Assembly (NCBI GenBank): GCA_001004005.1
Contig: LCQF01000009.1
Span: 1 to 42,375 of the forward strand
Reading direction: 5' to 3'
From: Parcubacteria group bacterium GW2011_GWA2_49_9
GTDB lineage: Bacteria; Patescibacteriota; Minisyncoccia; Phycocordibacterales; UBA10002
DNA length: 42,375 nucleotides
A program made the position numbers and the translations under genes. Below the pieces are notes generated by a model. That model was not told where the DNA came from. It did no database searches and saw nothing but the letters and a program-made list of their open reading frames with translations. The stretch's first letter is position 1; every line of letters begins with the position of its first letter. Shown here one piece after another: positions 32,412-34,316 of the stretch.

Positions 32412-33815
32412 CTACTTTTCCTTCGCAATTTTTATCCCCAGCTCCAGAAGCTGTTCGGGGGCAACCTCGGACGGCGCGTCCATCATAAGGTCACGCCCGT
32501 CGCCCGTCTTGGCGAAAGCGATAACTTCACGAATGTTCGGCTCGTTCTCCAGAAGCGTGACGAAGCGGTCTAGCCCCCACGCGATACCGCCGTGCGGAGG
32601 CGTGCCATGCGCGAACGCGGTGAGCATATGACCGAAGTTTCGCTCTATATCCTCCGCTTTGTGTCCCATAATCTCAAACACTTTCCGAAGTGCTTCGGGC
32701 TGGTGGTTACGGATACTGCCGCCACCGATTTCATTGCCGTTTAGCACGACGTCATACTGCGTCGTCAAAATCCCGCTAATATCTTCTTTTTTCAGCAGAC
32801 GCTCCATATGCTCATTTTGCGGGCGAGAAAAAGGGTTATGCGTGAAGGTCCAGCCTCCTTTGTCATCCTTTTCAAAAAACGGGAAATCAATCACCCATTC
32901 AAAGGCGAGCAGGTCGGGGTCGTTCTTGTCGGTCCGAATATCAGGCTTGTCGCTTCCGTATTTTTCCATCGCTTCTTTGTACGTGAGGCGCGGGAACGGA
33001 AGCGTTTGGATTCTTTTATTCGGGTACAGCGTCTTCACGATATCTATGAGTAGTCGTTCATTGAGCGCCATAACTTCCTCACGCTCCACGAAGCTCATTT
33101 CAAGGTCAAGCTGGGTGAATTCCGGCTGACGGTCTCCTCTGGTGTCTTCGTCGCGGAAACAGCGGGCAATTTGGAAATACTTTTCCATTCCGGCGGCCAT
33201 CAAGAGCTGTTTGTACTGTTGAGGTGATTGCGGAAGCGCGTAAAACTTTCCTTGGCTGATGCGGGACGGTACGATGAAGTCGCGCGAACCCTCCGGCGTA
33301 GATTTGGTAAGATTCGGGGTTTCGATTTCCACGAAACCCTCTTTGTCCAGAAAGTCGCGGATATATTTGATAATTTTATGGCGGTTGCGAATATTCTTCT
33401 GCAAACGTGGTCGGCGAAGGTCCAAATAGCGGTATTTCAGCCGAGCCTCCTCCCCTATTTCCTTTCCATCGCTACGCACGTCAATCGGCGGGGTGAGTGC
33501 CTCGTTCAGTACTTCAATTGAGAGGATTTCAAGTTCAACCTCCCCGTTCGGTTCGTTTTTGTTTACCAATTTTTCCGGGCGCTGATTTACCTTGCCGGAT
33601 ACCGAAATGACCCACTCGGGACGGACCGTACCCGCCAGCTTATGTGCCTCGGCGTGGCTGGGGAGTGCAATCATTTGGACTTTGCCCGACGCGTCGCGTA
33701 GGTCAATGAAAATGAGCTTGCCGTGGTCGCGCCGAATATCCACCCAGCCTTTGATGGTGACTTCCTGTCCGACCATTTCCTTAAGTTTTGCGATAAATGT
33801 TCGTGTAGGGCTCAT
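32412..33815 (-). CDS. aspS: Aspartyl-tRNA synthetase, bacterial type without GAD domain
   Basis: 467 residues, well below the 580-600 usual for bacterial AspRS. The OB-fold anticodon domain (about 1-110) and class II core are present: motif 2 CFRDEDTRGDRQPEFTQLD and motif 3 GIAWGLDRFVTLL. After YGSDKPDIR the bacterial GAD insertion (about 120 residues) is missing and the chain goes on directly to FEWVIDFPFFE. Otherwise the sequence follows bacterial, not archaeal, AspRS. It is preceded by a leader with T-box antiterminator and terminator features, whose bulge fits the G discriminator of tRNA-Asp. It heads the aspS-scpAB-dac-mraY-ftsW-murG cluster. Confidence 0.95.
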   Translation of the reverse strand: MSPTRTFIAKLKEMVGQEVTIKGWVDIRRDHGKLIFIDLRDASGKVQMIALPSHAEAHKLAGTVRPEWVISVSGKVNQRPEKLVNKNEPNGEVELEILSIEVLNEALTPPIDVRSDGKEIGEEARLKYRYLDLRRPRLQKNIRNRHKIIKYIRDFLDKEGFVEIETPNLTKSTPEGSRDFIVPSRISQGKFYALPQSPQQYKQLLMAAGMEKYFQIARCFRDEDTRGDRQPEFTQLDLEMSFVEREEVMALNERLLIDIVKTLYPNKRIQTLPFPRLTYKEAMEKYGSDKPDIRTDKNDPDLLAFEWVIDFPFFEKDDKGGWTFTHNPFSRPQNEHMERLLKKEDISGILTTQYDVVLNGNEIGGGSIRNHQPEALRKVFEIMGHKAEDIERNFGHMLTAFAHGTPPHGGIAWGLDRFVTLLENEPNIREVIAFAKTGDGRDLMMDAPSEVAPEQLLELGIKIAKEK

Positions 33816-33861
33816 AATAGAAAATTAAAATAATAAACTGTGAATTACTAAACTCTTGTCT

Positions 33862-33933
33862 TGTCATTCCTGCGGAGGCAGGAATCCAGAATAGAGAGCC
33901 AGAAATCTGGATTCCAACTTTCGTTGGAATGAC
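33862..33933. repeat. TGTCATTCC palindromic repeat
   Basis: Nested symmetry: TGTCATTCC, TGCGGAGGCA, GGAATCCAGA, a 15-base centre, TCTGGATTCC, AACTTTCGTT, GGAATGACA. Outer and inner arms are exact complements, and each half is itself a hairpin. This GTCATTCC...GGAATCCAGA type of repeat is widespread in bacterial genomes. Here it lies in the aspS leader, between the T-box terminator and the start codon. Confidence 0.85.
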
Positions 33934-33973
33934 AGAAACCGGTGTTATGCGGAGTTTCGTAATTCAAGGTAAT

Positions 33974-34316
33974 AAAAATAAAATCGCCCTTACAAAATCA
34001 CCCCGAAGGATGGTTTTGTAAGGACGTTCTTTCCGCGTCAATCTGCGTGTTATCCGCATCTATCCGCGTCTAGTCGTGGTGCCACCTTACTGCGCCCTGC
34101 GTAGCCTTGGCGAAGCAGGGCTTTGCCTGTCGTCAAACTCACAAGACCTTAATTCAAGCTGTAACGGGCTTTCCCGAAGGGGTCTACTGTGGGCGAACAG
34201 TTGTCTGCAACTGTTGTAGCCCTGTTCTTCCCTTAGCCTGCCCCGACAAGTCTTCTTCGTCGGGACCAAGCCGTGTCATCGGCTTCATTGCTTTCTCATA
34301 CTGTACCACAGGCAGG
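33974..34316 (-). promoter_or_regulatory. T-box leader candidate upstream of aspS
   Basis: Read on the minus strand: AAGG-TGGCACC-ACG (34075-34088) pairs with CGTCCTT (34020-34026). This gives the T-box antiterminator with the 7-base bulge TGGNACC. The same CGTCCTTAC starts a 13-bp terminator stem (33985-33997 with 34014-34026) followed by a T-rich run (33974-33984). The variable bulge base is C, which pairs with a G discriminator, as in tRNA-Asp, and the downstream gene is aspS. Upstream, CCTGCC (34311-34316) and GGCAGG (34237-34242) close an arm containing several GAC/GAT triplets, but the usual Stem I AG-bulge and loop motifs are not evident. The antiterminator loop is unusually long (48 bases) and holds a repeated word array. 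Confidence 0.75.

Follow-up and report, generated by a model that had tools for sequence, protein, structure and literature searches.

The gene for aspartate--tRNA ligase (aspS) lies on the minus strand of contig C9 behind a leader of about 480 nt, and the question raised by this locus is by what means such a leader could control the gene that follows it. The window, by which the whole analysed stretch of 42,375 nucleotides is meant, belongs to the genome (0.91 Mb in 44 contigs) of an uncultured, ultrasmall bacterium, and the closest relatives of its aspS are found in Patescibacteria of the Parcubacteria/Paceibacteria group. An earlier note on this DNA had proposed a T-box ahead of aspS, and its assignment of the gene is borne out (Table 1). 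As judged from its sequence and that of its relatives, the leader is very probably a T-box that attenuates transcription in response to tRNA.

Table 1. Features of the aspS leader and its surroundings, in positions of the window
Feature	Position	Strand	Basis or remark
Ultrashort Stem I, AGC-AAT-GA-AGCCG-AT-GAC-A-CGGCT-TG-GTC	34264..34292	-	sequence; Stem I covariation in relatives
Specifier GAC (Asp), followed by A	34275..34277	-	Stem I apical loop
Stem II, S-turn-like motif AGAA / AGTAGA	34180..34232	-	fold z -3.4; a relative's AGUA aligns with RF00230
Stem IIA/B-like element CGGGAAAGCCCGTTACAGCTT with CCGTTA motif of T-boxes	34156..34176	-	sequence; CCGUUA aligned to RF00230 in a relative
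Hairpin at Stem III position	34094..34121	-	built from a repeat present elsewhere in the genus
Antiterminator 5' side, GTAAGG-TGGCACC-ACG	34075..34090	-	sequence, covariation, model R1
Bulge TGGCACC, discriminator-reading base C	34078-34084	-	inside antiterminator 5' side
Insert in loop of antiterminator helix A2, GCGGATAGATGCGGATAACACGCAGATTGACGCGGA	34027..34074	-	partial copies elsewhere in genome
Strand CGTCCTTAC, common to antiterminator and terminator	34018..34026	-	pairing
Intrinsic terminator, stem 34026-33985 (13+5 bp) and T-rich tail	33972..34026	-	fold
Dispersed element, 86 nt, between terminator and aspS	33855-33940		inverted ends GTCATTCC...GGAATGACA
aspS, aspartate--tRNA ligase, regulated gene	32412..33815	-	aspS_bact 585 bits vs cut-off 374

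The downstream part of the leader holds two structures that compete for one strand. The pairing of AAGG-TGGCACC-ACG with CGTCCTT described in the earlier note is present in the window, where helices A1 (6 bp) and A2 (3 bp) have all of their positions paired (9/9) and flank a UGGN bulge on both sides, as in T-boxes. The same CGTCCTT was said to open a terminator stem, and it does so: the 5' strand of the terminator is CGTCCTTAC, so that antiterminator and terminator are mutually exclusive. The terminator stem is followed by the T-rich tail ATTTTATTTTTATT, folds with -24.4 to -25.5 kcal/mol (z -7.2) and lies about 170 nt before the aspS start; the dispersed element located in this gap has 45 more full or partial matches within its own genome. 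The insert in the A2 loop, of about 47 nt, has matches on contigs C3, C40 and C12. Relatives show both-sided changes in A1 (GTAAGG/CCTTAC, GTATGG/CCGTAC, GTGAGG/CCTCGC) as well as in A2 (ACG/CGT, GCG/CGC, GCA/TGC), amounting to 15 both-sided cells where shuffles give 3.9 +/- 1.7, and 98% of the antiterminator cells pair, a share that drops to 51% or less once the strands are slid. A terminator with a T-run that uses the antiterminator strand recurs in 87 of 104 leaders. An antiterminator covariance model built from relatives, with the window left out of training (R1), matches the window with 35.3 bits (E 7.3e-8) and finds this one element only in its genome. Covariation and model match together support the T-box scheme with its TGGNACC bulge.

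The earlier note had seen none of the usual landmarks of Stem I. A hairpin of 29 nt does occupy this place, consisting of a weak basal stem, a K-turn-like internal loop and the inner hairpin AGCCG-AT-GAC-A-CGGCT, whose loop reads AT-GAC-A. In general, a basal stem leads into a kink-turn pattern, made of three nucleotides and GA on the 5' strand opposite GA on the 3' strand; an inner stem of 3-5 bp comes next, capped by the loop nn-XXX-A. In the window, TG replaces the 3' GA that the relatives have. The leader L062 (genome G004) has TG in its K-turn too, and keeps specifier, bulge and terminator. Of the 75 aspS T-box leaders, 59 have the K-turn hairpin according to a search that ignored codon identity, and the fixed loop triplet was AAC (28), GAC (27) or GAT (1) in 56 of these 59. 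The same hairpin turned up in 28 of 375 shuffled leaders and in 4 of 65 control regions upstream of aspS without a T-box, none of the 4 with AAC, GAC or GAT. The inner pairs are formed in 34, 33, 32 and 26 of 35 rows picked regardless of pairing. Among 28 rows that had been selected for pairing, 39 both-sided cells were counted against 11.3 +/- 2.6 in shuffles, with 93.9% of the cells paired against at most 50% when slid. At the same loop position, the leaders of other genes carry ATC (ileS), ACC (thrS), AGC (serS) and TAC (tyrS). These were read by eye: the K-turn search does not suit the thrS leaders, whose codon was taken from the conserved block GGCTACCAACC, and in the ileS leaders the automatic search was right in 1 of 10, ATC being read in the loop of the others. 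The specifier is thus cognate to the regulated gene in the window, with GAC, and in these other gene classes.

The base of the bulge that would read the tRNA discriminator agrees with this assignment. The C of the window had been taken to call for a G discriminator, and tRNA-Asp of the same genome ends in ...CGGGCGC-G, its discriminator G being complementary to the bulge C. The bulge base changes with the gene: it is C in 68 and T in 7 of the aspS leaders, T before ileS (10/10), A before thrS (15/16) and C before serS (3/3), and the own-genome discriminators are A in tRNA-Ile and T (U) in two of three tRNA-Thr. No tRNA-Asn was found among the tRNAs of this genome, which is 92% complete, and its discriminator was read in relatives only; in other genomes, tRNA-Asp and tRNA-Asn end in G in 15 of 15 tRNAs. 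An explanation of the bulge T in AAC leaders by a tRNA-Asn with A73 was ruled out, since G73 is present in tRNA-Asn and tRNA-Asp of all genomes read. With G73, the minority bulge T before aspS would pair as a G-U wobble.

Between Stem I and the antiterminator, the leaders vary strongly in length. The AAGC/GCTT of the window's IIA/B-like element could form a pseudoknot. The hairpin at the Stem III position and the A2 insert are dispersed repeats in the window, and other leaders of the genus carry different repeats near these two places. Four leaders (L007, L011, L118 and L119) are very compact, with Stem I starting about 50-70 nt before the bulge and no clear Stem II, and are possibly among the smallest T-boxes.

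Leaders of this kind are widespread. The motif lies 60-140 nt before aspS in 13 of the 80 best aspS relatives, and R1 recovers all 13 of them and none of the remainder of the 80. The comparison of aspS leaders that the earlier note had suggested came out in its favour, as TGGNACC bulge, competing stems and GAC specifier recur in relatives, with covariation. Within the order, R1 matches 137 of 397 genomes (E <= 0.01), and within the phylum 83 of 380 (E <= 0.001). Such counts do not stand for independent events, given the kinship of the sequences and the presence of a few genomes in duplicate, from two collections. About 117 leaders have a readable core, of which 75 precede an AspRS gene, 16 thrS, 10 ileS and 3 serS, and elsewhere in the phylum such leaders also stand before tyrS and proS (gene identities were checked with NCBIfam, on representatives). 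Four genomes of Patescibacteria outside the class of the window (G403, G564, G627 and G635) have five to seven T-box candidates each. The presence of T-boxes across Patescibacteria would bear on the age of the mechanism, and would provide a concrete regulatory circuit for bacteria with reduced genomes.

Some of the leaders before AspRS genes carry AAC, which suggests that they read tRNA-Asn. A search of 51 genomes with such T-boxes found no gene above the asnS cut-off, and gatB was present in 16 of 16 genomes tested, although gatB is ambiguous here, as it serves the formation of Gln-tRNA too. The AspRS genes behind the leaders are partly of the bacterial type and partly of the 'aspartate--tRNA(Asn) ligase' type (PRK05159 above cut-off). 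The missing asnS match and the presence of gatB indicate that Asn-tRNA is probably made from Asp-tRNA(Asn), which would leave a single AspRS to charge both tRNAs, and this would account for AAC (Asn) beside GAC (Asp) specifiers. AAC specifiers before AspRS would then report, in nature, on the indirect formation of Asn-tRNA. It is reasonably probable, if less so than the T-box reading of the window itself, that Patescibacteria harbor unreported, phylum-wide transcriptional T-boxes with an ultrashort Stem I, the smallest of which do without Stem II, and that their AspRS leaders have switched between tRNA-Asp (GAC) and tRNA-Asn (AAC) because a non-discriminating AspRS feeds both.

The proposed model for the window is that the GAC in the apical loop of the ultrashort Stem I would pair with the GUC anticodon of tRNA-Asp, and that Stem II and the IIA/B element would brace this codon-anticodon pair. 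Uncharged tRNA-Asp would offer its free GCCA end to the UGGC of the bulge, and this pairing would keep CGUCCUUAC in the antiterminator, so that RNA polymerase would continue into aspS. Charged tRNA would be unable to pair with the bulge, CGUCCUUAC would join the terminator, and transcription would end. The effect may reach beyond aspS. Downstream of this gene, also on the minus strand, come scpA, scpB, a D-Ala-D-Ala carboxypeptidase-like gene, mraY and ftsW (some of these names rest on matches below cut-off), the gaps from aspS to ftsW measure 28-149 nt, and no terminator-like site was found on the minus strand within them. Control of scpAB and the murein genes by the T-box, raised in the earlier note, is a plausible possibility. 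Several observations count against the model: RF00230 finds nothing in the window, no more than 13 of the 80 nearest aspS relatives have the element, and the window's own copy departs from the plan in its basal stem, its K-turn and the insert of helix A2.

The main rival to this model is partial decay, which the TG in the K-turn, the weak basal stem and the repeats of the window bring to mind: the leader would descend from a working T-box that has decayed in this genome, leaving only the terminator still acting. The repeats inserted in the A2 loop and where Stem III would be, together with the 86-nt repeat between terminator and aspS, speak for such a relic, but the inserts sit where other leaders vary too, and L062 combines the same TG with a preserved specifier, bulge and terminator. 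Moreover, the specifier and its following A, the bulge, A1 and A2, the IIA/B motif and the terminator are all intact in the window, which makes a relic unlikely.

The terminator is strong by itself, and it could be asked whether the leader is a plain intrinsic terminator or another attenuator, protein-bound or constitutive, in which TGGNACC occurs by coincidence. This is extremely improbable, given that bulge and antiterminator are conserved and covary over many genera and that codon and bulge base track the gene. A T-box acting on translation, like the ultrashort ones of Actinobacteria, has in its favor the apical-loop codon in an ultrashort Stem I, a trait of translational T-boxes (PMC7583486); however, the stem competing with the antiterminator is an intrinsic terminator with a T-run, placed about 170 nt ahead of the aspS start, and the same holds for most of the leaders compared, so that a translational mode is very improbable as well. 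Transcription attenuation by a working T-box is thus the preferred reading.

Further T-box-like leaders were observed beside these. A second type (L151, L156, L169, L171, L185, L196, L198, L203, L211 and probably L154) has the same antiterminator and a longer upstream part that is highly alike among its members; its motifs are GGTTGGG, in the 3' strand of a stem, CTGC..GTGG and CCGTAAC. Its specifier might be TGG (Trp); the bulge base is mostly C, and the tRNA-Trp of the genome under study ends in G. Among the genes that follow are a trpD-like one, one for a dehydrogenase, others for Zn-ribbon-like proteins and two homologous unknowns (L203 and L211). Another leader, L143, whose Stem I loop reads AAC and whose bulge base is T, precedes no aminoacyl-tRNA synthetase gene but that of a 134-aa protein which resembles, by eye, PemK/MazF-type toxins, and L262 is a Tyr-type leader (GAATTACAC loop, bulge T) before a carboxypeptidase- or deacylase-like protein instead of tyrS.

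T-boxes are known chiefly from Firmicutes, and in small numbers from Actinobacteria, Chloroflexi, Deinococcus and Proteobacteria, in a survey that did not cover Patescibacteria (PMC2494555), and the literature searched, with subscription papers and preprints outside its scope, yielded no report of T-boxes for Patescibacteria, Parcubacteria or CPR, nor one of an ultrashort Stem I built together with a terminator. The Rfam model RF00230, with which the earlier note would have had the leader checked, did not match the window or its genome. Of 197 genomes from the order, 57 did contain a match to it with E <= 0.01 (best E 4e-17), yet none of the 197 exceeded its gathering cut-off of 93 bits, the best relative reaching 75 bits, so that annotation misses these leaders. 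That best match, the ileS leader of a relative, aligns over the whole model, keeping the AGUA of Stem II, the CCGUUA of IIA/B and the antiterminator; 6 nt take the place of 76 Stem I positions. This replacement of the distal Stem I implies that the elbow-binding module is absent.

The leaders share with canonical transcriptional T-boxes (RF00230, e.g. the aminoacyl-tRNA synthetase leaders of Bacillus subtilis) the TGGNACC bulge, the antiterminator/terminator swap, the Stem II AGUA and IIA/B CCGUUA motifs and the purine after the codon. Unlike canonical class I T-boxes, they have no long Stem I with an elbow-binding distal module, and the compact ones also lack a clear Stem II. The apical-loop codon in a short Stem I, the missing elbow-binding module, the basal K-turn and, in many, Stem II are traits they share with the actinobacterial translational ultrashort T-boxes (ileS; Sherwood et al. 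2015, via PMC7583486), and the class II model of TBDB was run on Actinobacteria and on class I matches with a truncated Stem I (PMC7778990). From these class II T-boxes the present leaders differ in phylum, in their many specificities (Asp, Asn, Ile, Thr, Ser, Tyr) and in their output, which is an intrinsic terminator instead of sequestration of the ribosome site. Apical-loop specifiers belong to short Stem I T-boxes, mostly translational, and transcriptional T-boxes generally need a long Stem I in order to catch the tRNA in time (PMC7583486), a claimed need that these natural leaders would put directly to the test. The new tRNA-reading design suggested in the earlier note is hence only partly new: an ultrashort Stem I with the codon in its apical loop was known from translational T-boxes of Actinobacteria, and what is new is its combination with a transcription terminator.
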